NCBI GenBank assembly: GCA_001797815.1 | Contig: MGQK01000081.1 | Span: 80,637 to 95,153 of the forward strand | Source: Deltaproteobacteria bacterium RBG_13_61_14 | GTDB taxonomy: Bacteria; RBG-13-61-14 | Reading direction: 5' to 3' | Length of the DNA stretch: 14,517 nt | Part shown: piece by piece, positions 1-14,517 of the stretch | Layout: each line of letters starts with the position of its first letter | Numbering within the stretch: position 1 is the stretch's first letter | Made by a program: the position numbers and the translations under genes | The notes under the pieces: model-generated | Database searches by the model: none | The model's input: only the letters and a program-made list of their open reading frames with translations | Told to the model about the DNA's origin: nothing

Positions 1-315
1 GACCAGGACGAGTGCGTGACCTGCCACAACTGCGTCCTCTCCTGCCCCTTCGGCGCCATCTTCACCCACGACGATTTCGACGTGCCCTTCAAGTGCGACC
101 TTTGCCAGGGCGACCCGCAGTGCGTCAAGGCCTGTCCCAAACAGGCGATCCAGTATGTGCCCAAGCACATCATCGGCCAGACCCAGCGCATGCGCCACGT
201 GCTCAATTACGCCAACATGCGCCAGGTCGAATACGTGGAGGCGGGCGAGAAAAAGGTGCTGCGCTACGTCCAGGCGCCCATCCCCGACCGCGGCAACCCC
301 CAGACCGGAGATTGA
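1..315 (+). CDS. 4Fe-4S polyferredoxin subunit next to AOR (5' end cut by window)
   Basis: This is the C-terminal 104 residues of an iron-sulfur electron-transfer protein; the start lies left of the window. The visible part has two cysteine sets typical of [4Fe-4S] clusters: C5-x2-C8-x2-C11-x3-C15-P, then C32-x2-C35-x5-C41-x3-C45-P. The uneven spacing of the second set resembles the HycB/DmsB/AorA type of multi-cluster ferredoxin subunit, so more clusters may lie in the missing part. The gene ends one base before the AOR start codon, so the two are surely cotranscribed. The inferred role is to carry electrons between the tungsten enzyme and cellular ferredoxin or another acceptor. The tail after residue ~60 has no cysteines and no recognised motif. 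The family is clear; the exact subunit type is an inference. Confidence 0.88.
   Translation, partial: DQDECVTCHNCVLSCPFGAIFTHDDFDVPFKCDLCQGDPQCVKACPKQAIQYVPKHIIGQTQRMRHVLNYANMRQVEYVEAGEKKVLRYVQAPIPDRGNPQTGD
307..310 (+). promoter_or_regulatory. Ribosome binding site setting the AOR start
   Basis: GGAG lies six bases before the ATG at 317, inside the last codons of the ferredoxin gene. It supports starting AOR at 317. The same frame stays open upstream to 155, but that stretch overlaps the ferredoxin gene. Confidence 0.6.
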
Positions 316-316
316 A

Positions 317-2161
317 ATGAAAGTGAAAGGCGGTTATTTCTGGAAGGCGCTCTTCGTGGACCTGAGCGCGGGCCAGGCCTTCGGCCTGCCCTTTGACGAG
401 GAATTCGCCAAGAAATATATCGGCGGCCGGGGATTCAACATCAAGTTCCTGTGGGACAACCTGCGCCGACATAAATTCAAGATCAACCCCTTCGGCCCGG
501 AAAACGTGATTTGTATGTCGCCGGGTCCGCTCGGCGGCACCTACACCGTGGCCGCCGGCAAGACCAGCTTCGCCACCATCTCGCCCGCCACCGGCATCTA
601 CGGCGATTCCTCCATGGGCGGAGTGTTCGGCCCCGAGTTCCGCCAGACCGGCCACGACGCGCTCATCCTCTCCGGCCGCGCGCCCGAGCTTTCCTATTTG
701 CTGATTGACGGCGCCAAGGTGCGGATCGTCCCCTTCCCCGAGCTCAAGGGCAAGAGCGCGCTGGAGGCCGAAGGCATGATCCGGCAGCAGACCGGCGACC
801 AGGATCTGAAGATTGCCGTGATCGGCCCGGCTGGCGAGAACCGGGTCGTCTTCGCCTGCGTCAACTCCGACTGGTCGCGGAACGCGGGCCGGGTCGGGAT
901 CGGCGCGGTGCTGGGCTCCAAGAACCTGAAGGCCATCGCGGTCCGGGGCGCCTGCGACCTGCCGGTGGCCGAGGTGGGCCAGTTGATGGAGATCACCAAC
1001 GCCGGCTTTGCCCGGCTCAAGTCGCACAAGCTCTTCAGCTTCTGGCAGGAGCAGGGGCTGATGAGCGTGGTGGATTACGTCAACGGCATCGGCGTGATGC
1101 CCACCTACAACTTCAAGGACGCCCACTTTGACCGGGCTGACCAGATCAACGGCTTCGTGATGGAAGAGCGCTACAAGATCGGAGACACCGCCTGCTTCTG
1201 CTGCCCCATGAGCTGCGGCAACGCCTGCCTGGTCAAGGAGGGCAAATATTCGGGCGCGGTCTGCGAGGGGCCGGAGTATGAGACCGCCTGCATGTTCGGC
1301 TCCAACCTGGGGATTGACAACTTCGCTTTCATTGTGCGCGCCAACCAGCTTTGCGACGAACTGGGGATTGACACCATCAGCACGGCCAACCTGATCGGGG
1401 TGATGATCGAGGCGGTGACCAGCGACCTGGTGCCGGTGGAAGAAGTGGACGGCCTGGCGCTGGAATGGGGCGATGAAGAAGGCGTGATTACGCTCATGCA
1501 CAAGATCGCGAACCGGGAGGGCGTGGGCGACACCCTGGCCGGCGGAAGCAAGGCGGTGATCGCCCGCTGGCCCCGGCTCAAGCCGATCATCAGCCAGGTC
1601 AAGGGACTGGAGCAGTCGGCCTACGACGCGCGCACCGCGGTCTCCATGGCGCTCGCCTATGCCACCTCGGACATCGGCGCCCACCACACCCGCGCCTGGA
1701 CCCTGGCCCACGAGATGGAGCAGGGCCTGAACTGGTCGCCGGAGAAAAAGGTGGACCTGGTCATGTATCACCAGACCGTGCGGCCGCTGTTTGACATGCT
1801 CGGGGTCTGCCGGCTGCCCTGGATCGAGCTGGGCTTCCCGGAGGACTATTATGAGCAGGCCTACCAGGCGGTGACCGGCGTCAAATATTCGCTTCAGGAT
1901 CTCCTGGCCAAGTCGGCGCTGCTCTATGACTTGACCCGGCTGATCGGCGTCAAGCTGGGCATCTCCCGCCAGGACGACCAGCCGCCGGACCGCACCTTTG
2001 ACCAGCCGGTGCTCTCCGGCCCGCAAAAAGGCAAGGTGGTGCGGCGCGAGGATTTTGAGGAACTGCTCGAGCTTTACTACCGCAAGCGCGGCTGGGATCA
2101 GAACGGAATTCCGCCCCAGGAGCGGGAGCGGGAATTCAGCGAGCCCTTGGTCTCGGAATGA
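317..2161 (+). CDS. aor: Aldehyde ferredoxin oxidoreductase (tungsten-bispterin enzyme)
   Basis: The 614-residue protein is full length for the AOR family (about 600-620). Family members oxidise aldehydes to carboxylic acids, or reduce acids in reverse, using a tungsten-bispterin cofactor and one [4Fe-4S] cluster, in the cytoplasm. The N-terminal GGRGFN motif (residues 36-41) and the glycine-rich stretch around PGPLGGT belong to the pterin-binding domain. The cluster ligands are visible as C293-x2-C296-x3-C300 with a distant C498, very close to the spacing in the archaeal enzyme (288, 291, 295, 494). Extra cysteines C295 and C304 flank the motif. A histidine pair at 456-457 lies roughly where the family's conserved active-site histidine is expected. 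The start at 317 has a GGAG site and follows the ferredoxin stop by one base. The substrate (aldehyde type) cannot be told from the sequence; a closely related subfamily such as an aromatic-aldehyde or carboxylate reductase is possible. Confidence 0.96.
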   Translation: MKVKGGYFWKALFVDLSAGQAFGLPFDEEFAKKYIGGRGFNIKFLWDNLRRHKFKINPFGPENVICMSPGPLGGTYTVAAGKTSFATISPATGIYGDSSMGGVFGPEFRQTGHDALILSGRAPELSYLLIDGAKVRIVPFPELKGKSALEAEGMIRQQTGDQDLKIAVIGPAGENRVVFACVNSDWSRNAGRVGIGAVLGSKNLKAIAVRGACDLPVAEVGQLMEITNAGFARLKSHKLFSFWQEQGLMSVVDYVNGIGVMPTYNFKDAHFDRADQINGFVMEERYKIGDTACFCCPMSCGNACLVKEGKYSGAVCEGPEYETACMFGSNLGIDNFAFIVRANQLCDELGIDTISTANLIGVMIEAVTSDLVPVEEVDGLALEWGDEEGVITLMHKIANREGVGDTLAGGSKAVIARWPRLKPIISQVKGLEQSAYDARTAVSMALAYATSDIGAHHTRAWTLAHEMEQGLNWSPEKKVDLVMYHQTVRPLFDMLGVCRLPWIELGFPEDYYEQAYQAVTGVKYSLQDLLAKSALLYDLTRLIGVKLGISRQDDQPPDRTFDQPVLSGPQKGKVVRREDFEELLELYYRKRGWDQNGIPPQEREREFSEPLVSE

Positions 2162-2457
2162 GCCGGGGTAAAGAGTCCATGCCCGATACCAGAAGGCCTT
2201 ACCCCCGCCTGGTCACGGTGAAATTCACCTCCCGCCTCCGCTTTGATCTCGGCCGCGATCAGGAACACGTCCGGGCCGACAGCATTGCGGAACTCCTGGC
2301 CGAACTGGAACACCGCCACGGCGATTCCTTCCGCCATTGGTCGGAGCACTACAAGATCTTTGTCAACGGATCGAGCATCGCCACGCTCCACGGCTCGAAC
2401 ACCAAGCTCGCTGACGGAGACGAGGTCGTTTTCCTCCTGCCCGTGGCCGGCGGCTGA
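2158..2457 (+). CDS. MoaD/ThiS-like sulfur carrier protein
   Basis: This 99-residue protein ends in the Gly-Gly tail (98-99) typical of ubiquitin-fold sulfur carriers. The preceding LADGDEVVFLLPVAGG matches the C-terminal signature of MoaD, the small subunit of molybdopterin synthase. In that family the tail is adenylated and thiocarboxylated and gives sulfur to the pterin dithiolene. Its place directly after AOR suggests it supplies the pterin for the tungsten cofactor, a pairing seen often in AOR operons. The ATG at 2158 overlaps the AOR stop (ATGA), which favours translational coupling. An in-frame ATG at 2179, behind a purine-rich stretch, is a credible alternative and would give 92 residues. 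No moaE, moeB or other cofactor gene is present here. Confidence 0.87.
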   Translation: MSRGKESMPDTRRPYPRLVTVKFTSRLRFDLGRDQEHVRADSIAELLAELEHRHGDSFRHWSEHYKIFVNGSSIATLHGSNTKLADGDEVVFLLPVAGG

Positions 2458-5051: not shown

Positions 5052-5963
5052 TCAAGCCGGTAGCTCAACCCGGTATTTCTCGATCAGGTGGTCCGGGAAA
5101 AAGGACTCTTTGGCCTGGCGAAGGCCCGGCTCGCCCAGATCCTGCTCGCGGTTGATCCAGGCGACGTCCGGCCAGGCGTTTTTCACGTATTCGTGGGTCA
5201 GGGTGGGGTAAAGGCCCTCGAGCTCGGGGTTGGCCTTTTCCACGTGGATGACCGCGGTGTCCGGGTTCAAACTCTCGCCCAGGGAGAAAGCCTGGATCTT
5301 GCCGGCTACCGCGATGCAGGCGCCGGCAAAGCTGAGCCGATCGGCATGGCGCAGGGCGATGGCGATCGAGCGGTGTTCCAGCCGCAGGCCCGGGTCTTCC
5401 TCGCAGTGCTTGAGGTTGCACCAGTATTCCTGCAGCTCCAGGCACTGCTGCACCAGCTCCGGGGTGAACGGGAGGTAAGCCCAGTCGTGGCTGCCAGTAA
5501 AGCGCTTGATGTGGTTGCGCTTGCGCGAGTAGCGCCGGCCGGCCAACGTGGCCAGCGCTTCCCGCGAATACACGTAATCAAAGTTGTCCCGGTCCGGGGT
5601 GATCACCAGCTCGGGCAGTTCCGGGGCCAGCGCCTTGGCCACGGCCGCGGGCACCCGCTCCATCCGGCCAGGATGACCCGCCTGCGCCATCGCCTGGAAC
5701 AGGCGCTTGACCTCTCTGAAATCCAGCTTCGGCCCCTTCGGCGGAAAGAGGTAAGGCAGGGTCCCCTCGATCGGCGCGGCCATCAGATAAAGCACCTCTG
5801 CCGCAACCCGCCAGGAAAAGCGGTTCTTATGGTTCCACATGAAGAGATTGGTAAAAGTAAGCTCGGAGATCTCGGGCGGAAACCGCCGCAGGAAGTCGGT
5901 GATGACTTCACGGTCGCCGAGTTCAAGCTCTTTGAATCCGGGCAGGCGAAAGGGCTGATCCAT
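5052..5963 (-). CDS. DUF2156 protein (phosphatidylglycerol lysyltransferase C-terminal-like fold)
   Basis: This 303-residue protein has the hallmarks of the DUF2156 family, which shares the tandem GNAT-like fold of the catalytic part of MprF. Signature segments are FTNLFMWNHKNRFSW (37-51), DNFDYVYSREALATLAGRRY followed by SRKRNHIKRF (126-155), and WINREQDLGEPGLRQAKES near the end, ending in LIEKYRV. It lacks the MprF membrane domain, so it is cytosolic. Stand-alone members are common in anaerobes, and their substrate is unknown to me; aminoacyl transfer from aminoacyl-tRNA is possible but unproven. The start at 5963 is preceded by AGGAG (5970-5974 on this strand) with six bases between. It is the last gene of the leftward cluster, separated from rubrerythrin by a heptamer-repeat hairpin, so cotranscription is uncertain. 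Confidence 0.88.
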   Translation of the reverse strand: MDQPFRLPGFKELELGDREVITDFLRRFPPEISELTFTNLFMWNHKNRFSWRVAAEVLYLMAAPIEGTLPYLFPPKGPKLDFREVKRLFQAMAQAGHPGRMERVPAAVAKALAPELPELVITPDRDNFDYVYSREALATLAGRRYSRKRNHIKRFTGSHDWAYLPFTPELVQQCLELQEYWCNLKHCEEDPGLRLEHRSIAIALRHADRLSFAGACIAVAGKIQAFSLGESLNPDTAVIHVEKANPELEGLYPTLTHEYVKNAWPDVAWINREQDLGEPGLRQAKESFFPDHLIEKYRVELPA

Positions 5964-5982
5964 GCGGAACTCCTGGAGAGGC

Positions 5983-6084
5983 TTTAGGCGTTAGGCATTA
6001 GACTTTAGGCTTCAGGCCGGAGCAAAGATACTATTCATTATTGAATAAGTCCCCCTTGGAGCCTAAGGCCTAAAGTCTAAAGCC
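5983..6084. repeat. Inverted repeat of tandem heptamers between rubrerythrin and DUF2156
   Basis: The left side (5983-6017) is exactly five 7-base units: TTTAGGC, GTTAGGC, ATTAGAC, TTTAGGC, TTCAGGC. The right side (6061-6084) is three inverted units plus GCC: GCCTAAG, GCCTAAA, GTCTAAA. The best arms (5999-6017 with 6061-6079) pair at 17 of 19 positions around a 43-base AT-richer centre. The architecture copies the trpE-trpG repeat with a different unit sequence. It could act as a processing or stability hairpin in the leftward transcript, but it lacks a terminator-type U-run. Confidence 0.8.
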
Positions 6085-6090
6085 TCTCTT

Positions 6091-6594
6091 TTACTCCACT
6101 TGTATGAACTTATCGCGCTTGGCCCCGCAGACCGGGCAGGTCTCCGGCGGAATTCCGTCCACCACGTAGCCGCACACCGAGCAGACGTGGAAGTGGGACT
6201 CCCGCTCCGCGGCCAGGTCGCTCATCGCCTGCTTGTAAAGCGTCTTGTGGTATTCCTCCGCGTCCTTGGCCTGGGTGAAGGCCAGGCGAGCGGCGTTGTC
6301 GTCGTCGGCCTCCGCCTGCTTGATGAATTGGGGGTAGTGGTTCTCGCTGACAATGGTCTCGCTCTCGAAGCTCCGCTGCAGGTTTTCCTCGGTGTTCCGG
6401 ATAATCCCCATCAAGCGGAGCGCGCGGGTGGCGTGGACAAACTCGGCCGCACTCACCGCCCGAAACAGTTTGGCGATCTGCGGATACCCGTCCTGCTCCG
6501 CCTTTTCGGCAAAGCTGCGCAGGCGGACGGTGGCCTTGGCCTCGCCCACAAACGCCTCGAACAAGTTCTTTTCCGTTTCGGTCATTCCGTCCAT
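6091..6594 (-). CDS. rbr: Rubrerythrin
   Basis: This 167-residue rubrerythrin is a cytosolic peroxidase that reduces hydrogen peroxide at a diiron site using electrons from rubredoxin. The four-helix ferritin-like domain (about 1-130) shows E18, the E51-x2-H54 pair, acidic ligands around E77-E84, and E113-x2-H116. The C-terminal rubredoxin-like domain binds one iron through C138-x2-C141 and C153-x2-C156 (CPVCGAKRDKF). It is slightly shorter than the classical ~190-residue enzyme and of normal domain order. GAGGAG lies five bases before the ATG at 6594, so I prefer that start over the in-frame ATG three codons later. The rubredoxin gene lies 43 bases upstream in the same direction, matching its electron donor. 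Confidence 0.95.
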   Translation of the reverse strand: MDGMTETEKNLFEAFVGEAKATVRLRSFAEKAEQDGYPQIAKLFRAVSAAEFVHATRALRLMGIIRNTEENLQRSFESETIVSENHYPQFIKQAEADDDNAARLAFTQAKDAEEYHKTLYKQAMSDLAAERESHFHVCSVCGYVVDGIPPETCPVCGAKRDKFIQVE

Positions 6595-6637
6595 GGCTTC
6601 TCCTCGTCCGGTGCCGGGCCAAACTTTCCGCCCGCGC

Positions 6638-6799
6638 TTAATTCAGCGGCTCGAACTGGTCCTTTTCCGCCCCGCACTGAGGGCAGGTCCAGTCGTCCGG
6701 CAGTTTGGCAAAGGGTGTCCCCGCCGGCACCCCGTTGTCCGGGTCGCCCGCGGCGGGATCATAAATATAACCGCACACCTGACATTCATACTTCTGCAT
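6638..6799 (-). CDS. Rubredoxin
   Basis: This 53-residue protein has the usual rubredoxin length and both iron-binding knuckles: C6-x2-C9 (CQVCGY) and C39-x2-C42 ([12 protein letters not shown]), with the [12 protein letters not shown] and LPDDW segments between. It carries single electrons in the cytoplasm, here most likely to rubrerythrin or the ferritin-like protein beside it. The start at 6799 is set by a strong AGGAGGGAAGG directly upstream. The frame stays open for 46 more codons, but that translation is arginine/serine-rich nonsense, and another frame there encodes a reductase remnant. Confidence 0.96.
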
Positions 6800-6944
6800 C
6801 CTTCCCTCCTTCTCTTTCAGTCTTCGTCCCGGCCTCCTCGGCCCCGCGCAAGAGCTCCTGGAGCAGGATGTCGCGGTTGCGGTTCCGCCGCGGCGGGGAG
6901 GAGAGGCCGAGAAGATAAACCGGGCGGTCCGACTCAAGCCCCAT
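6786..6944 (-). pseudogene. N-terminal remnant of an NADPH-dependent FMN reductase/flavodoxin-like protein
   Basis: A 52-codon frame starts at an ATG overlapping the end of the ferritin-like gene (ATGGGGCTTGA) and ends at a TGA 14 bases inside rubredoxin. Its residues 9-40 ([20 protein letters not shown], then [12 protein letters not shown]) closely resemble the first strand, phosphate loop and first helix of NADPH-dependent FMN reductases, whose usual form is LGISGSPRKNGNT...LL..AL.GAEEAG. The loop has lost both expected glycines and the Thr ([10 protein letters not shown]), and the remaining ~150 residues of the family are missing. I read it as a truncated, decaying gene that once sat between the ferritin-like and rubredoxin genes. 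It could still be translated by coupling as a short peptide. The assignment rests on motif memory, not a search. Confidence 0.6.
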
Positions 6945-7458
6945 CTAATTGGCTTCTCTGTTTCTCCTGGAACCAGGTTTCCGGATCGCTCAGGTATTGG
7001 ACGGTGTCGCTGACCAACTGATAGTGGCCGCGCTCCTCGCCGGCCAGCCGCTCGAAAAACTCTTGCGCAAAGGCGTCCCGCGATTTCGGGATCAGGTCCC
7101 GGTAAAACTTCTCGTTCTTCTCTTCCAGCACCAGGGCGGTCTCAAGCGCCTGGATATCATCGCTGTCGCCCTTGAGGTGCTTGGCCTGCTCCTGGACCAG
7201 TCGCGCGAAAACCTTGCCCGGCGCTTCGATGGGGGCCGCAACTCCCTTGGTCTCGGGCCAGGGACGCTTTTCCTGCAAGGCCTGAAACACGTCCCGGATC
7301 CGCTCCAAGTGGCCGTCCTCCTCCTTGACCAGATGGGCGAAGATCTGCTTGCCCAGTTGGTGCTTGGCCTGGTCCCGCGCCTGGACGTAAAAGGCCTTGC
7401 CTTTCAACTCGATCTCAATCGCCTCTAAAAGCGCCGCCTGGCGGTCATGTTGCGCCAT
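6934..7458 (-). CDS. Ferritin-like diiron protein (rubrerythrin family without rubredoxin domain)
   Basis: This 174-residue, mostly helical protein has two paired iron-ligand motifs of the ferritin-like superfamily: [10 protein letters not shown] near E15/E17 with E47-x2-H50 (KEEDGH), then LEEKNEKFY near E112/E113 with E142-x2-H145 (EERGH). The repeated E...ExxH pattern is that of rubrerythrin-type diiron proteins, but there is no C-terminal CxxC knuckle, so it needs an outside electron donor such as the neighbouring rubredoxin. Oxygen, peroxide or iron handling is the inferred role. The ATG at 7458 has GGAAGGGAG eight bases upstream; an open frame to 7512 has only a TTG start. It is the first gene of the leftward cluster. 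Confidence 0.88.
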
Positions 7459-7484
7459 CGCTTTGGCTCCCTTCCATCCTCGTT

Positions 7485-7512
7485 TTATTACAGGTTCTAT
7501 GTAAGTTAGCAA
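7485..7512 (-). promoter_or_regulatory. Candidate promoter of the leftward oxygen-defence cluster
   Basis: On the - strand TTGCTA (7507-7512) and TAATAA (7485-7490) are spaced 16 bases, 27 bases before the ferritin-like start codon. An overlapping TGTAAT (7487-7492) is a better -10 but would leave only 14 bases. No clear Fur or PerR palindrome was seen. Confidence 0.3.
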
Positions 7513-7604: not shown

Positions 7605-7676
7605 CCCGGCACTTGCCCTGGCACCCGCCGGGAAGCACGGGTTTGATTCCCTGGGGGAAATCAGATAGAATTTTTT
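7605..7676 (+). promoter_or_regulatory. Attenuator-like leader with overlapping hairpins
   Basis: Three stems share strands. Stem A pairs CCCGGC (7605-7610) with GCCGGG (7627-7632) over an inner TGCC/GGCA stem. Stem B pairs GGGAA (7630-7634) with TTCCC (7647-7651). Stem C pairs TTTGATTCCC (7642-7651) with GGGAAATCAGA (7655-7665, one bulged A). A run of six T follows at 7671-7676, five bases past stem C. B excludes both A and C, as in a terminator/antiterminator switch upstream of the radical SAM operon. It matches no riboswitch class I know. The offset U-run weakens the terminator reading. Confidence 0.35.
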
Positions 7677-7760: not shown

Positions 7761-9257
7761 ATGTCAGATCCCCGCCACATCGAAAGGGTCTTTCTCCTTT
7801 TCCCGCCTATCCGTTTATACCGCGAGACGATGAAGCTCGTCTTCTCGCCTCTCGGTGTCAGCTACCTGGCGTCGTTCATCCGCCAGGACGTGGACGTCGC
7901 CATCATGGACGCGGTGGCCGAAGGCTTTGACCACGAGGTGGAGCTGGACGAGGACTTCATTTCCTACGGCTCGCCGCTTTCCGAGATCCGCAAACGGATC
8001 GAGGCTTTTCGGCCACAAGTGGTGGGCATCACCTGTCTCTTCTCCTCGGTCTTTCCGGTCATCCGCCAGCTCTGCCGCATGGTCAAGCAGGTGGACCCCA
8101 ACATCCTCACCGTCATCGGCGGAACCTACCCCTCTTTTCTCCCCGAGCATTGCCTGGGGGAGGAGAGCCTGGACCTGATCGTGCTGGGCGAAGGGGAGGA
8201 CAGCTTCCGCGACCTAATTCTCCGGCTGCGCGAGGGCCGGCCGCTCGGCGAGGTGGACGGTCTCGCCTTTCGGGTGGACGGCAAGGTGGTGGTCCAGCCC
8301 AAGACCCGCTGGATCGCCGACCTGGACACCATCCCCTTTCCGGCCCGCGACCTTTTGCCCATGGAGGTTTACGCCCGGATCAACGTGCCCCACAGCCTCA
8401 GCGCCAAGGAAAAGCTCAACACCCCGCTCATCACCTCCCGCGGCTGCCCGGCGCGGTGCATCTACTGCTCGAGCTCCCGCTACTGGGGCCACCGCTTCCG
8501 GGCGCGCTCGCCGGAGAACGTGCTCGACGAGATCGGCGAGCTGATCGAGCGCTTTAGTATCCGCGAGCTCCAGTTTGAGGACGACAACTTTACCGCCAAC
8601 CCGAAGCGGGCCAAGGCCATCCTCCAAGGCATCCTCGACCGGGGCTACCAGGTCTCGTTCAATTTCCCGAACGGGGTGGCGCTGTGGACGCTGGACGAGG
8701 AGTTGGTGGAGCTGATGAAGGCAGCCGGCTGCTACGAGATGACGCTGGCTTTCGAGTCCGGCAGCCAGTTCGTGCAGGACCACATCATCAAGAAGCCGCT
8801 CAACCTCGAGCGCGCCCGCCGGATCACCCGGCTCATCCACCAGAAGAAAATCCGCACCAACGCCTTCTACATCTTCGGCTTCCCCGGCGAGACCCGCGAG
8901 CAGATGCAGGAGACCTTCCGCTTCGCCCGGGAGATGAAGACCCACATGGCCTACTTCTTTATCGCCAACCCCCTGCCCGGCACCGAGCTTCACCGCCTGG
9001 CCCGGGAACAAGGCATCCTGCCCGACGACTTCAACTTCGAGAACCTGACCTTCACCCGCTCGGTGTTCAAGCCCGGACTGTTCCGGCCTCGGGAGTTGGA
9101 GCGCCTGGCCGGCCGGGAGTTCGTAAAATACAACCTCCGCGCCTTCTTCCGCCACCCCTGGATCCTGTTCAAGAAGGCAATCGTGGACCTGCTCCTCCGC
9201 CGGCCCCGCTACACCCTGGGTCTGCTGATCCGGGTCTGGAAACGGAACCTCCGCTAA
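7761..9257 (+). CDS. B12-binding-domain radical SAM protein (first paralogue)
   Basis: This 498-residue protein joins an N-terminal cobalamin-binding-like Rossmann domain (about 10-160, opening VFLLFPPIRLY, with VIGGTYPSFLPEH and VLGEGEDSF) to a radical SAM barrel. The [4Fe-4S]/SAM motif is C229-x3-C233-x2-C236 in RGCPARCIYCSS. FESGS, FGFPGET and ANPLPGTEL mark the C-terminal half of the barrel. The cobalamin-ligating DxHxxG motif of classical B12 enzymes is not seen, as is usual in this class. Members catalyse methylations, ring closures or other difficult radical chemistry on lipids, pigments or natural products; the substrate here is unknown. The frame cannot extend upstream (stop at 7755), and AGGGA abuts the ATG. 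It opens the rightward operon and is paralogous to the gene at 12903. Confidence 0.92.
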   Translation: MSDPRHIERVFLLFPPIRLYRETMKLVFSPLGVSYLASFIRQDVDVAIMDAVAEGFDHEVELDEDFISYGSPLSEIRKRIEAFRPQVVGITCLFSSVFPVIRQLCRMVKQVDPNILTVIGGTYPSFLPEHCLGEESLDLIVLGEGEDSFRDLILRLREGRPLGEVDGLAFRVDGKVVVQPKTRWIADLDTIPFPARDLLPMEVYARINVPHSLSAKEKLNTPLITSRGCPARCIYCSSSRYWGHRFRARSPENVLDEIGELIERFSIRELQFEDDNFTANPKRAKAILQGILDRGYQVSFNFPNGVALWTLDEELVELMKAAGCYEMTLAFESGSQFVQDHIIKKPLNLERARRITRLIHQKKIRTNAFYIFGFPGETREQMQETFRFAREMKTHMAYFFIANPLPGTELHRLAREQGILPDDFNFENLTFTRSVFKPGLFRPRELERLAGREFVKYNLRAFFRHPWILFKKAIVDLLLRRPRYTLGLLIRVWKRNLR

Positions 9258-9261
9258 GCCG

Positions 9262-10536
9262 ATGGCCACCCCCATCCTCCACCGCGAATGGCGCCAGGCC
9301 CTGCTCGCCGCGATCGTGCTCAAGCTGGCCGCGCTCGCCGTCCTCTACTGCGGCTGGCAATTCATCCCCAAGCCCCTTTACCCGGCCGACCTCTGGATGA
9401 CCCGGCCCGCCACCTCCTTTGGCGATAACCTGGTCAACTTCGACGGCGCCTGGTTCGTGCGTCTGGCCGCCCTCGGCTACCGCCGCCTCGCCGCCGGCGA
9501 CTACGACCTGGCCGCGGAGACCAAACGCCTGCGCGTGCTCGATTCCCTCGGCTACCAGCAAGGGCTCTACCCCGGCGACCCGGCGCGCCTGGACCGCGGC
9601 TACGGCTTCCGCCACTGGCCGCTCTTCCCTTGGCTGGTCCGAGCCACCGCCCTCATCGTCCGCGACTACGTCACCGCCGCGGCGCTGCTCGCCAACCTCG
9701 GCTACCTCGCCTTCGCGCTCCTCTTCTACGCGCTCGTCCGCCTCGACTTTGACCACGCCGCCGCCCTCAAGGCCCTGCTCTTCGCCTCCATCCATCCCGG
9801 CGCCTACAGCCTGACCGCCGGCTTCAACGAAAGCCTCTTCATGGCTCTCACCGCCGGCGCTTTCCTCGCCGGCCGCAAAGACCGCTGGCTCTGGGCCGGG
9901 CTGCTGGCCGGCCTGGCCTGCACCACCCGCATCCTGGGCGAGATCATCCTGGTCCCGCTGCTCTACGAGTATCTCCGCCGCACCTGCAACCCGGAAGCCG
10001 GGCCCGCCCCGCTCAGCGCCGTGCTCGGCCCCGAGAACCTGCGCCGCGCCTGGCAGCGCTTCCGAACCCGGCCGGCCTTGCTCTGGCTGCTCCTCATCCC
10101 GGCCGGCACCGGCGTAGTGCTCCTCACCTTCCAACAGACCGCGGGCAGTGCCTGGGTCTTTTTCGGCGCGCACGAGGCCAACGTCCACGGCCATATCAAC
10201 TGGCCCTGGCTCATGCTGATGGAAACCTATCGCAAGGGCGCTCACGTCTGGCTTAAGGAAATTCCGCTCCACGCCGCGCTCCTCCTGGTCATCCTGGCGT
10301 CGCTCCGCCATCTCCGCAAGTCCTACCTGCTCTGGATGATCCTCTTCTTCCTCATCCAGACCGCGAACGCCAATCACTCCTACCTCCGCTACCAGATCCA
10401 GTGCCTGCCCCTGTTCATCGGCCTCGCCGAGATCGGGCGCCGGCACCCGGCCCTGGAAGCGGGCATGATCGCGCTCAGCGCCGGCCTGTTCGGCGTGTTC
10501 GCGACCATGTTCATCAACGGCTATTGGACGGCATGA
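9262..10536 (+). CDS. PIG-V-like integral membrane mannosyltransferase
   Basis: This 424-residue hydrophobic protein has about ten membrane helices, beginning near residues 13-31. Several features recall the PIG-V (GPI mannosyltransferase 2) family of GT-C glycosyltransferases: FDGAWFVRLAALGYRR (60-75, with D61 in the first large loop), HWPLFPWLVR, and GFNESLFMALTAGAFLAG followed by WAGLLAGLACTTRILG (E190, R223). Such enzymes move a sugar from a polyprenyl-phosphate donor to an acceptor on the outer face of the membrane. It starts four bases after the radical SAM stop with no clear ribosome site, so translation is probably coupled. It could also be another unassigned GT-C enzyme. The sugar and acceptor are not readable from the sequence. 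Confidence 0.8.
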   Translation: MATPILHREWRQALLAAIVLKLAALAVLYCGWQFIPKPLYPADLWMTRPATSFGDNLVNFDGAWFVRLAALGYRRLAAGDYDLAAETKRLRVLDSLGYQQGLYPGDPARLDRGYGFRHWPLFPWLVRATALIVRDYVTAAALLANLGYLAFALLFYALVRLDFDHAAALKALLFASIHPGAYSLTAGFNESLFMALTAGAFLAGRKDRWLWAGLLAGLACTTRILGEIILVPLLYEYLRRTCNPEAGPAPLSAVLGPENLRRAWQRFRTRPALLWLLLIPAGTGVVLLTFQQTAGSAWVFFGAHEANVHGHINWPWLMLMETYRKGAHVWLKEIPLHAALLLVILASLRHLRKSYLLWMILFFLIQTANANHSYLRYQIQCLPLFIGLAEIGRRHPALEAGMIALSAGLFGVFATMFINGYWTA

Positions 10537-11960
10537 TGGAAAAGCATGAGCCGGAACGCGTGGTGATCCTGGGCGGCGGCCCGGCCGGGCTGGCCGCGGG
10601 CAAGGTGTTGGCGGACCATGGCCGGCCCTGCACCGTGTTCGAGCAGGACGAGGCCGTGGGCGGACTGTCCCGCACCCACTCCTACCAGGGCTTCCTCTTC
10701 GACCTCGGCGGCCACCGCTTCTTCACCAAGAAGAACGAGCTCGACCAATTCCTCCGCGCCCTCCTGGCCGACGAGCTGATTGACGTCGCCCGCTCGAGCA
10801 AGATCTACTTCCGCCACCGGTACTTCAATTACCCGCCCACCCTGCTCAACGCTTTCTTCGGCCTGGGCCCGATCACCTCGGCCCAGATCCTGCTCACTTT
10901 CCTGCGGGAAAAGCTCCGCTACCAGAAGCCGGCCATCGTCACCCTGGAAGACTGGATGGTTTCCCAGTTCGGCCGCGCCATGTACGAGATTTTCTTCAAG
11001 ACTTACACCGAGAAGGTCTGGGGCATCCCCTGCTCGCAAGGCTCCGCGATCTGGGCCGCCCAGCGGATCAAGGGGCTGTCGCTCCTGGCCACCCTCAAGG
11101 AGGCGGTCTGGCCCGGAACCAAGGACCGGCCGGTGAGCCTGATCGGGAGTTTCAAATACCCCGCCCACGGCATCGGCCGCATCTCCGAGCGCCTGGCCCA
11201 GGAGATCCGCAAACACGGAGAGGTCCGGCTCAACTCCCGGGCGGCCCAGATCCTCCACGACGGCCGGCGGGTGACCGGCGTCCGGGTCCAGACCCGTGAC
11301 CGTCAGAGCTATGATTTCCCCGGCGGGCGCTTCTTCTCCAGCATCCCGGTCACCGAGCTGGTCCAGAACTTCGACCCGCCGGCCCCGCCCGAGGTGCTCG
11401 AGGCCAGCCAAGCGCTCCGCTACCGGGACCTGCTGATCGTGGTCCTGCTCTTTGACGCCGAGCGCATCACCCAGGACACCTGGATCTACATCCCGGACCC
11501 GGAGATCCCCTTCGGCCGGCTCCACGAACCCACCAACTGGTCCCCGGCCATGAGCCCGCCCGGCAAGACCGCGCTGGTCTTCGAATACTTCTGCTTCGAG
11601 ACCGACCCGATCTGGAAAGAGCCGGACGGCCGGCTGATCGAGATGACCCGGGAGAGCTTCCGCCGGATCGGGCTGGCGCCCGGCGCCGCGGACCGGATCA
11701 TCGGCGGCTGCGTGGTCCGCGCCAAGAAGGCCTACCCCATGCACGAGATCGGCCACGAGCAGCCGCTCCAGATCCTCCAGGAATTCGTGAACCGCTTCGG
11801 GAACCTCACCCTGATCGGCCGCTACGGCACCTTCATCTACAACAACATTGACCACTCGATCGAGACCGGGATCCAGGCCGCGCAAAACCTGCTCGGCGCC
11901 CGCCCCGCCGGCACCGGCGCGATCCCGCCGGATGAATACCTGGAAGTCAAATATGAATGA
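10533..11960 (+). CDS. FAD-dependent oxidoreductase of the protoporphyrinogen oxidase/UDP-galactopyranose mutase-like family
   Basis: The 475-residue protein has an N-terminal FAD-binding Rossmann motif (VVILGGGPAGLAAG, 10-23), an acidic ribose-binding residue in VFEQDE, then GGLSRT and FDLGGHRFFTKKNEL, the pattern of the COG1232 amine-oxidase-like flavoproteins. The middle part (TLEDWMVSQFGRAMYEIFFK, then TYTEKVWGIPC, AAQRIKGLSLLATL) and the C-terminal RYGTFIYNNIDHSIETG are typical of a subgroup often found in polysaccharide clusters and recall UDP-galactopyranose mutase. It is therefore more likely to act on a sugar nucleotide or isoprenoid lipid than on haem. The ATGATG start overlaps the preceding TGA at 10534-10536; the ATG at 10536 is equally possible. 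It overlaps the next gene by eight bases. Confidence 0.87.
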   Translation: MMEKHEPERVVILGGGPAGLAAGKVLADHGRPCTVFEQDEAVGGLSRTHSYQGFLFDLGGHRFFTKKNELDQFLRALLADELIDVARSSKIYFRHRYFNYPPTLLNAFFGLGPITSAQILLTFLREKLRYQKPAIVTLEDWMVSQFGRAMYEIFFKTYTEKVWGIPCSQGSAIWAAQRIKGLSLLATLKEAVWPGTKDRPVSLIGSFKYPAHGIGRISERLAQEIRKHGEVRLNSRAAQILHDGRRVTGVRVQTRDRQSYDFPGGRFFSSIPVTELVQNFDPPAPPEVLEASQALRYRDLLIVVLLFDAERITQDTWIYIPDPEIPFGRLHEPTNWSPAMSPPGKTALVFEYFCFETDPIWKEPDGRLIEMTRESFRRIGLAPGAADRIIGGCVVRAKKAYPMHEIGHEQPLQILQEFVNRFGNLTLIGRYGTFIYNNIDHSIETGIQAAQNLLGARPAGTGAIPPDEYLEVKYE

Positions 11961-12903
11961 CCCGGCCCCCGCCTGCCGGCTGTGCGGCGGCACCGCCTCC
12001 CGGCTCTACCTGGCCCGGGTCTATGCCATCGGCGGGCAGAGCTACGACCTGCGCCAGTGCCGGGACTGCCGGCTGGTCTTTGTCCACCCGTTCCCCCAAG
12101 TGGAAACCCTGCGCGGCCTCTATTCCGAAAACTATTTCCATTCCGATTTTGCCTGCGGCATCCGCGCCGGCAGCTACCTGGAAACCGAGCGCTCGCGGGT
12201 GGAGGAATACCGGGAGATCCTCCAGGAGATCCAGCGGCGCAAGCCCCGGGGCCGGCTCCTGGAAGTGGGTTGCGCCGCGGGCAGCTTCCTCAATTACGCC
12301 CGGCGCGCGGGCTTCGAGGTGACCGGGGTGGACATCTCCACCTGGGCCGCCCGGACCGGGCAGGAACAGTTCAGCCTCGACATCCGCGCCGGCCGGCTCC
12401 AGGAAGTCAAGCTCCCGGACCGCCGGTTCGACGTGGTCTTCCTGGGCGACCTCCTGGAACACGAGCCCGAGCCGGTCACCTTTCTTCAGGAGGTCTTCCG
12501 GATGCTCACGGACGACGGCCTGGTGGTGATCAAGGTGCCGGTCTATGTCAACTCCTTTTACTACCTGCTCTTCCGGCGCCTGCCCTGGCAATGGACGCTG
12601 GGCAAGCTCGATCATCGCCTGCTCCAGGCCCTCAAGATCCATCAAGACGAGGTCCGGTTGCCGCCTTATCACCTTTTCGAGTTCTCGCCCAGGACTCTGG
12701 CCCGGCTCTGTCGCCGGGCGGGCTTAAAGATCGTGGCGCGCCAGAACTCGCTCTTGATCCCCGAATTTCTCTCCCGCCACCCCAAGGGCTGGAGCGAGAA
12801 GCTCGTGCTCCGGGGGTTTCGTCTGCTCAAGTTTCTGGTGGCCACTTTCAATGTTCACGGCGGACACGTGATGGTCCTGGCCGTCAAGGAGGCCGCGGCC
12901 TGA
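11953..12903 (+). CDS. Class I SAM-dependent methyltransferase with N-terminal Cys knuckles
   Basis: The 316-residue protein begins with CRLCGG and, ~25 residues later, CRDCRLVFVHPFP. These paired CxxC knuckles probably bind zinc and recur in methyltransferases of sugar and surface-polysaccharide clusters. The Rossmann methyltransferase core follows: motif I LLEVGCAAGSFL (about 98-109), the acidic VTGVDIS that binds the SAM ribose, and FDVVFLGDLLEHEPEP, then LTDDGLVVIKVP. The C-terminal ~100 residues (HLFEFSPRTLARLCRRAGL) are also usual for this group. C- or O-methylation of a sugar or lipid intermediate is the inferred role. The ATG at 11953 overlaps the flavoprotein stop by eight bases and has TGGAAG seven bases upstream. 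Its stop overlaps the next start (TGATG). Confidence 0.92.
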   Translation: MNDPAPACRLCGGTASRLYLARVYAIGGQSYDLRQCRDCRLVFVHPFPQVETLRGLYSENYFHSDFACGIRAGSYLETERSRVEEYREILQEIQRRKPRGRLLEVGCAAGSFLNYARRAGFEVTGVDISTWAARTGQEQFSLDIRAGRLQEVKLPDRRFDVVFLGDLLEHEPEPVTFLQEVFRMLTDDGLVVIKVPVYVNSFYYLLFRRLPWQWTLGKLDHRLLQALKIHQDEVRLPPYHLFEFSPRTLARLCRRAGLKIVARQNSLLIPEFLSRHPKGWSEKLVLRGFRLLKFLVATFNVHGGHVMVLAVKEAAA

Positions 12904-14309
12904 TGGCGCGGATTCTGCTAGTGGAGTCCGGGGTGGAGAGACCCGGGAGCTTCGTCTATCAGGTCTATCCGCCCACCGGGCTGATGTACCTGGCGGCTTA
13001 CTTGCGCCAGAAGGATCCCGGCCACCAGCTCCGGCTCCGCGACTTCCTGATCGAGCGCCGGCCGGCCCCAGCCCTGGCCGATGAGGTCCAGAGCTTCCGG
13101 CCCGACCTGATCGGCATCCACGCCATGAGCTTCCAGGCCAGCCACTTGCTCCGCCTGGCCCGGGTCGCCAAGGCCGCCCGGCCCGAGGCCGAGGTCATCG
13201 CCGGCGGGCCGCACCCGACCATTGACCCGGCCTCGGTGCTCCTGCCGGGCGATGTGGACGCTGTCGTCCTGGGCGAGGGCGAGGCGACCTTTGCCGATAT
13301 TGTCTCCCGCCTGGCGCAGGGGCAAGACCTGGCCGAAGTCCCGGGCACGGTGGTGCGGCGAAACCGCGAGCTGGTCCGGGGCCCGGAGCGCCCCTTCCTG
13401 GAAAACCTCGACCAGCTTCCCTTCCCGGCCTGGGACCTGATTGATCCCTCCCGCTACTTCGCCGACCGGGTCCTCAACCAGAACGATCTGCGCTGGCGAC
13501 GCGAGGTGGCCACCCTCTTCACTTCCCGCGCCTGTCCTTACGGCTGCATCTACTGTCACAACATGTTCGGCAAGCGCTTCCGCCCGCGCTCGCCCGGCAA
13601 TGTGCTGGCCGAGATCGAGTTGCTGGCGGCGGAGCACGGCATCCGCGAGTTCCATTTCATTGATGACTGTTTCAACTTCCAGCCGGAGCGGGCCAAGGCC
13701 ATCCTGCAAGGGATCCTGGACCGGGGGCTCGACCTCAAGCTCGCCTTTCCCAACGGCATCCGCGGCGACCGCCTGGACGATGAACTGCTGGACTTGATGA
13801 AGCGGGCGGGGACCTATAAGATCAACTTCGGGATCGAGAGCGGTTCCCGGCGCATCCAGAAGCTGATCCAGAAGGGCCTGGACCTGGGGGTGATCGAGGA
13901 CGCGATCGCCCGCACCGCCGCGGCCGGGATCTTCACCCACGGCTTCTTCATGCTCGGCTTTCCCGGCGAGACCGAGGCGGAGATGCGTGAGACCATCGCC
14001 TTGGCCTGCCGCTCGCGCCTGCACACCGCCGGGTTTGCGCTGCTCTCGCCCTTTCCCGGCACCCGGGTCCGGCAGATGGCGGAAGAGAGGGGGATCGCGA
14101 TCGCTTACCGTCCCGAGGACACCTCTTATGCACAATTGAGTGCAAACCTGAGCGCGGTGGACGACGCCGCCTTGCTCCGCCTGCACCGGGAGGCGCACCG
14201 CCGCTTCTACTTCCGGCCGGGGCAGCTCGGGCGCATCCTCCGGGCCATGCCCCGCCGCTCGGACCTCTTTCGCCTGGCCCGGCGCCATTACCGGCTGAAG
14301 TTCGTGTGA
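12903..14309 (+). CDS. B12-binding-domain radical SAM protein (second paralogue)
   Basis: This 468-residue protein has the same build as the enzyme at 7761. It has an N-terminal cobalamin-binding-like domain (ILLVESGV at the start, GGPHPTIDPA at 101-110, VVLGEGEATF) and a radical SAM domain with C211-x3-C215-x2-C218 in RACPYGCIYCHN. FIDDCFNF, AFPNGI, GIESGS, LGFPGET and SPFPGTRV line up one by one with its paralogue. It starts on the TGATG overlap with the methyltransferase gene. The ending (YFRPGQLGRILRAMPRRSD) is basic and may touch a membrane or partner, but no membrane helix is seen. Two such enzymes in one operon suggest two successive radical steps on related intermediates; that is an inference. 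Confidence 0.93.
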   Translation: MARILLVESGVERPGSFVYQVYPPTGLMYLAAYLRQKDPGHQLRLRDFLIERRPAPALADEVQSFRPDLIGIHAMSFQASHLLRLARVAKAARPEAEVIAGGPHPTIDPASVLLPGDVDAVVLGEGEATFADIVSRLAQGQDLAEVPGTVVRRNRELVRGPERPFLENLDQLPFPAWDLIDPSRYFADRVLNQNDLRWRREVATLFTSRACPYGCIYCHNMFGKRFRPRSPGNVLAEIELLAAEHGIREFHFIDDCFNFQPERAKAILQGILDRGLDLKLAFPNGIRGDRLDDELLDLMKRAGTYKINFGIESGSRRIQKLIQKGLDLGVIEDAIARTAAAGIFTHGFFMLGFPGETEAEMRETIALACRSRLHTAGFALLSPFPGTRVRQMAEERGIAIAYRPEDTSYAQLSANLSAVDDAALLRLHREAHRRFYFRPGQLGRILRAMPRRSDLFRLARRHYRLKFV

Positions 14310-14312
14310 GCC

Positions 14313-14517
14313 ATGACCGCGACCTTTTCCCAACCTTCGCGCCGGCTGGAACGCCTGGCCCTGCTCCTGGTGCTGCTTCTGGGCCTGGCGCTCCGGCTCG
14401 CGCACTTCCAGTTTTTCATCCCCTATTTCTATTACCTGGACGAATTCCGCACCACCGCTTTGGCCCTCCGCCTGTTTCAGGAGCGCACCCTCGACCCGCA
14501 CTTCAGCCTCTATCCCG
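14313..14517 (+). CDS. GT39-type membrane glycosyltransferase (3' end cut by window)
   Basis: Only the first 68 residues are present. After a basic start (SRRLERL) comes one strongly hydrophobic helix (about 14-30), then an outer loop with YYLDEFRTTALALRLFQERT. The acidic DE pair at the start of this loop, followed by an alanine/leucine helix, is characteristic of the PMT/ArnT (GT39, RgtA/B-like) family, which uses polyprenyl-phosphate sugars as donors. The ATG at 14313 lies three bases after the radical SAM stop, so it belongs to the same operon. The family call rests on this short N-terminal stretch. Confidence 0.72.
   Translation, partial: MTATFSQPSRRLERLALLLVLLLGLALRLAHFQFFIPYFYYLDEFRTTALALRLFQERTLDPHFSLYP

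Follow-up and report, generated by a model that had tools for sequence, protein, structure and literature searches.

An operon conserved within one bacterial order combines B12-binding radical SAM enzymes and GT-C glycosyltransferases with a flavoenzyme predicted to resemble UDP-galactopyranose mutase

Deltaproteobacteria bacterium RBG_13_61_14 (GCA_001797815.1; genome G000 here) is represented by a metagenome-type assembly of 4.7 Mb in 132 contigs that is 95% complete. We analyzed a stretch of 14,517 nucleotides (the window; contig MGQK01000081.1, G000:C81:80637-95153), which carries a compact operon of B12-binding radical S-adenosylmethionine (SAM) enzymes (B12-rSAMs), GT-C glycosyltransferases, a flavoenzyme and a methyltransferase. 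An original prediction, made from the letters of the window, had read six tightly packed genes as a pathway for a modified glycolipid or surface glycan. All six are present on the + strand, and their intergenic distances of +4, -4, -8, -1 and +3 bp (overall -8 to +4 bp) confirm the tiny gaps and overlaps that had been described. Following the contig to the right showed that the operon is incomplete at the window edge and continues in locus L009 (window coordinate = L009 + 14163). In total it has ~10 co-directional genes spaced -10 to +10 bp, namely three B12-rSAMs, one SPASM radical SAM enzyme, two GT-C enzymes, one glycosyltransferase of family 2 (GT2), a methyltransferase, a flavoprotein and an exported protein, after which a divergent sulfatase bounds it.

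The first gene, rSAM1 (7761..9257), has the motif CPARCIYC and the Pfam domains B12-binding (2e-21) and Radical_SAM (1e-20). It is followed by GTC_A (9262..10536), a polytopic GT-C glycosyltransferase; by FAD (10533..11960), the flavoenzyme, of family PRK07208/NF005548; by MT (11953..12903), a class I SAM methyltransferase (Methyltransf_23, 2.3e-22) with N-terminal Cys pairs; and by rSAM2 (12903..14309; CPYGCIYC; Radical_SAM 5.4e-23, B12-binding 8e-22). The second GT-C gene, GTC_B (GT39/PMT_2-type), has its N-terminus in the window (14313..14517), where the first loop carries a DE motif, and runs to ~15718, its middle interrupted by two N-run assembly gaps. Beyond it lie rSAM3 (L009 1552-2928; CSGQCSYC), the GT2 gene, whose product has three C-terminal transmembrane (TM)-like segments (L009 2931-3962), the SPASM enzyme rSAM4 (L009 3953-5047) and, last, the exported protein (L009 5058-6479). 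The products of rSAM1, rSAM2 and rSAM3 each have both Pfam domains above cut-off and a CxxxCxxC motif.

Pfam bore out the predicted families (two B12-rSAMs, a PMT_2/GT87 GT-C enzyme, an amino-oxidase-fold flavoprotein and Methyltransf_23) with one exception. GTC_A had been called PIG-V-like, a label that we reject, given that the Pfam PIG-V model is absent at E<=10 for three orthologues whereas PMT_2 and GT87 are listed. GTC_A scores 33.4 bits with PMT_2 (cut-off 26.1) and 29.7 bits with GT87 (cut-off 25), and it has six TM-like segments, the first of which is followed by Asp61 in the loop motif NFDGAWF. The complete GTC_B orthologue of the related genome G002 matches PMT_2 at 38.5 bits (1.8e-9), with ten TM-like segments and the DE motif. 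Judged from these sequence features, both proteins belong to the GT-C superfamily (PMT_2/GT39-like). A PDB sequence search with GTC_A gave nothing at E<=1, and its AlphaFold2 (AF2) model from three sequences (predicted local distance difference test, pLDDT, 41.5) is too poor for structure search.

Gene order was compared among three genomes of the same order, G000 and the lake-sediment metagenome-assembled genomes (MAGs) G001 and G002 from AlinenSediments. G002 keeps rSAM1-GTC_A-FAD-MT-GTC_B-GT2-rSAM4 in order with comparably small gaps or overlaps, and G001 keeps rSAM1-GTC_A-FAD-MT as far as its contig reaches. Hence, the operon is more than a chance arrangement. The seven-gene order is kept across two families at 45-69% identity (full-length pairs, from ~45% for GTC_A and GT2 up to 69% for rSAM1); in the same place in G001 and G002, rSAM1 is 69%, GTC_A 45-47% and MT 56-60% identical. 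Two genes are missing from the G002 operon: rSAM2, whose closest relative in that genome lies on a different contig (54%), and rSAM3, which has no relative above 36% in G001 and G002. The core therefore consists of seven genes with one B12-rSAM, and the two other B12-rSAMs are accessory. These may be tailoring enzymes gained in G000 or lost in the relative, as lineage-specific changes. Both rSAM1 and the SPASM enzyme are present in every same-order copy with a contig reaching that far. The prediction of an operon for a glycan or glycolipid without a described product is thus supported, and the operon is conserved within the order (seven genes in G002, four in G001); no assigned pathway matched it. 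Outside the order, rSAM1 orthologues are found in different surroundings, which include neither GTC_A nor the flavoenzyme, and a search with the flavoprotein over the genome contigs matched only the two same-order MAGs and one 24% relative. A paralogue of rSAM1 (62%) stands alone between unrelated genes at L011:8634-10127 on the - strand, and its orthologues (~60%) are likewise isolated in G001 and G002.

By sequence profile, predicted fold and active-site residues, the flavoenzyme is UDP-galactopyranose mutase (UGM)-like, of the eukaryotic type. A three-orthologue profile matches the Trypanosoma cruzi UGM (TcUGM; 4dsg) at full length (4.8e-25, hidden Markov model), whereas for amine oxidases and the like the match is confined to the N-terminal FAD part. 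An AF2 model built from 18 homologues (pLDDT 88.2, predicted template-modelling score, pTM, 0.88) retrieves eukaryotic-type UGMs at all of Foldseek ranks 1-34. It superposes on 4dsh with Z 37.6 and a root-mean-square deviation of 2.6 Å over 433 residues (4dsg/4dsh range 37.5-37.6, 433-443 residues). Across the eukaryotic UGMs of T. cruzi and Aspergillus fumigatus (4dsg, 3ukh) the full-length fold is shared at Z 34-38, although identity is ~21-23% and the present enzyme is bacterial and encoded in an operon with B12-rSAM and GT-C genes; its mutase role is predicted. A CrtI/HpnE or protoporphyrinogen-oxidase identity is rejected on account of matches confined to the N-terminal FAD domain and lower Z. 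The flavoprotein had been linked beforehand to sugar-nucleotide or isoprenoid chemistry, of which the former stands and the latter is not supported. With the bacterial Glf model TIGR00031 it scores 45 bits, well under the cut-off of 303.75, and with its own family model NF005548 it scores 468.5 bits (cut-off 389). It is the sole UGM-like match in all three genomes.

The active site of TcUGM comprises His62, Arg176, Asn201, Tyr317, Arg327, Tyr395, Arg423, Tyr429 and Asn433 (PMC4192007). In the HMMER alignment, where the chain index equals the published number + 3, the nine residues correspond to H61, R178, I204, Y319, R329, Y401, R430, Y436 and N438 of the flavoenzyme, and eight of the nine positions, all except I204, are invariant across the 18 homologues. 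The remaining position (Asn201 in TcUGM, Asn207 in the A. fumigatus enzyme, AfUGM) is I, V or A in 18/18 homologues and never Asn; hence we class the enzyme as UGM-like and not as UGM. Flavin-assisted opening of a sugar ring is its likely chemistry, and the sugar may differ from galactose. The same substitution also suits an enzyme that is not a mutase and uses the UGM fold otherwise, for example for redox chemistry on a lipid-linked or nucleotide sugar, with the B12-rSAMs taking its product. Conservation on the uridine side is only partial, with Y-T/S in place of the RPYN of UGMs, and NCBIfam assigns the family no function; both would agree with such a role. However, invariance extends to the flavin-contact His, the two Arg and two Tyr at the diphosphate, Tyr317, Arg423 and Asn433, none of which redox chemistry would require, and we consider this alternative possible though unlikely. 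Read as UGM-like, the fold and nearly full active site make PRK07208/NF005548 testable with nucleotide sugars and offer a concrete enzymatic handle on a large family that NCBIfam names 'hypothetical protein'.

A wider search for the flavoenzyme family covered 386 genomes from across the domain, and 20 loci from outside the order were inspected. A B12-rSAM is the direct same-strand neighbour of the flavoenzyme homologue in 5/20 loci (G149, G287, G043, G320 and G076), compared with 0.117 loci expected (P 1.7e-7 in a simple Poisson model using each genome's B12-rSAM count). The pairing is therefore probably functional. For G149 the adjoining B12-rSAM is the only one detected in the genome, and an rSAM4-like gene additionally adjoins. 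In the flavoenzyme tree, G149 and G287 join the clade of the window (94/94), and in both the flavoenzyme is likewise paired with a B12-rSAM. The tree requires two changes to account for the B12-linked forms; a single origin is also possible. Five other loci of the 20 have a GT2 resembling that of the operon next to the flavoenzyme homologue, and some distant loci have PMT_2 GT-C neighbours. For many uncharacterised B12-rSAMs, such repeated pairing would point to sugars or glycolipids, rather than to peptides or hopanoids, as substrates.

Our favoured reading, held with evenly divided confidence, is that the ~10 genes form one operon for a lipid-linked, furanose-containing surface glycan or glycolipid that is carbon-modified by B12-rSAMs. 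In a first step, the UGM-like active site suggests, the flavoenzyme would turn a UDP-hexopyranose into the furanose form via a flavin-N5 sugar adduct, and the loss of Asn201 hints that this sugar may be a modified galactose or a different sugar. The GT2 would then transfer a sugar onto a membrane-bound acceptor, which would either yield a polyprenyl-phosphate sugar or lengthen a lipid-linked chain. Judging from their family, the two GT-C enzymes would use polyprenyl-phosphate sugar donors on the outer side of the membrane. Finally, the enzyme families and the recurrent pairing suggest that rSAM1, the SPASM enzyme and MT may alter sugar or lipid carbons, by C-methylation or by HpnJ-like ring remodelling. 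Other B12-rSAMs of G000, in loci L106, L113 and L117, are also placed in glycan clusters, which we count in favour of this reading.

Several points weigh against it. The replaced Asn201 contributes to UGM catalysis, and the reaction may therefore not be galactopyranose mutation; the mutase activity is a prediction and its product putative. The UGM fold is common to protoporphyrinogen oxidases, the best of which reaches Z 30.4 against the flavoenzyme model, the highest value outside the UGMs. The donor and acceptor of the GT-C enzymes are unsupported because the GTC_A model is too poor, and the operon has neither a sugar-nucleotide biosynthesis gene nor a flippase. Conservation of the whole order was seen in one order-level lineage and three genomes only. 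The Poisson estimate of chance adjacency is a simple one, and one family contributes two of the five pairs; P becomes ~7e-6 with four pairs and 2.5e-4 when only three independent lineages are counted.

The operon might also be a common type of O-antigen or capsule locus that varies between strains and has no dedicated product, with radical SAM enzymes in it since the lineage has many. B12-rSAMs are indeed expanded lineage-wide, with ~28 proteins in G000 and 23 and 29 in the two relatives (E<=1e-20), glycan loci are variable in general, and the relative's operon lacks rSAM2 and rSAM3. However, seven genes in conserved order at this divergence, and a flavoenzyme-B12-rSAM pairing that recurs in distant genomes, both argue for a dedicated pathway, and an ordinary glycan locus appears improbable. 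Several B12-rSAMs in one operon are nevertheless less striking because the genome encodes so many. Hence, the earlier argument that two B12-rSAMs imply unusual chemistry is weakened, given also that only one is kept in the relative's operon and that such enzymes need not methylate.

The substrates of the radical SAM enzymes bear on a further alternative, in which these enzymes and MT act on the tail of a lipid, whether ether, hopanoid-like or polyprenyl, and the glycosyltransferases do no more than attach a head group. The nearest NCBIfam models of rSAM1 are all far under cut-off (Sden_1168 271/575, BchE 176/481 and HpnJ 173/578 bits); the best model is of the Sden_1168 type for rSAM1 and rSAM2 and HpnJ for rSAM3. 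No NCBIfam equivalog model, and hence none for C-methylation, passed its cut-off for the B12-rSAMs of the operon. BchE and OxsB are B12-rSAMs with chemistry other than methylation. Likewise, HpnJ forms a cyclitol from a lipid-bound sugar, so that a B12-rSAM need not be a methylase, and both HpnR and HpnJ act on hopanoid lipids (PMC12583986). A lipid tail as substrate would fit the latter, as well as the HpnJ scores of rSAM1, rSAM2 and rSAM3 (173, 160 and 261 bits) and their 119-145 bits with TIGR04072, 'lipid biosynthesis B12-rSAM', but all of these are far under the cut-offs of 577.6 and 360. The operon contains no acyl, ether-lipid or isoprenoid gene, and the flavoenzyme resembles UGM and neither CrtI nor HpnE; modification of a lipid tail is thus unlikely in our view. 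A hopanoid product, and with it the hopanoid cyclitol route, is set aside because no squalene-hopene cyclase (TIGR01507) was found in the three genomes, a model that is weak in control genomes too, and because HpnJ scores stay under cut-off.

Among known systems, the HpnI-HpnK-HpnJ route to bacteriohopanetetrol cyclitol ether (PMC12583986) likewise has a GT2, followed by a B12-type radical SAM enzyme whose substrate is a lipid-bound sugar, and rSAM3 scores best with HpnJ, although at less than half its cut-off; the operon lacks the deacetylase and has GT-C and UGM-like enzymes in addition. In the open-licence literature searched, we found no matching described pathway, no B12-rSAM combined with glycan or membrane-lipid clusters and no naming of PRK07208; the only match for UGM with radical SAM was a dairy-starter genome paper, judged unrelated. 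The core of rSAM1 aligns with the solved structures of AprD4 (6.7e-19), TokK (1.4e-13) and OxsB (3.5e-9), but none is close and the scores do not reveal the substrate. AprD4 acts on aminoglycoside sugars. Polyprenyl-phosphate-sugar-dependent GT-C systems include ArnT/PMT and the mycobacterial arabinofuranosyltransferases. These resemble the operon in combining a membrane GT-C (PMT_2/GT87) with a GT2 and an enzyme of a furanose-forming type, but they are not known to include B12-rSAMs, whereas the operon shows no Emb/Aft or ArnT homology and contains no donor synthesis genes. A wider proposal, which we offer as a conjecture with the balance well against it, is that widespread bacterial UGM-like mutases and B12-rSAMs jointly make carbon-modified (C-methylated or ring-remodelled) furanoses for lipid-linked glycans, with this operon the most elaborate copy seen. 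We know of no described example of such chemistry.

Among the other glycan clusters of G000, L106 (G000:C81:20000-32000) lies on the same contig and has a B12-rSAM with GT-C, GT2, NAD-epimerase and GT4 genes; in L113 a B12-rSAM lies amid GT2 and GT4 genes. L117 (G000:C57:1-11000) resembles an O-antigen-export locus, with two B12-rSAMs, two SPASM-type radical SAM enzymes and a GT2 beside a Wzt_C ATP-binding cassette (ABC) exporter ATPase. The exported protein of the operon, which matches no Pfam or NCBIfam model, has 12 copies in G000, and another copy (L116:5722-7113) directly adjoins a B12-rSAM. No cobalamin riboswitch or other Rfam element was found in the window, and a promoter scan upstream of rSAM1 yielded a single weak -35/-10-like site (7643-7671) that could have arisen by chance. 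Further upstream, window positions 155-2457 encode an aldehyde ferredoxin oxidoreductase and then a ThiS/MoaD-like protein, with a ferredoxin-like frame ahead. The - strand at 5052-7512 carries an LPG_synthase_C (DUF2156-like) gene followed by genes for two rubrerythrins with a rubredoxin between them, the oxygen-stress set of an anaerobe, which points away from the operon.

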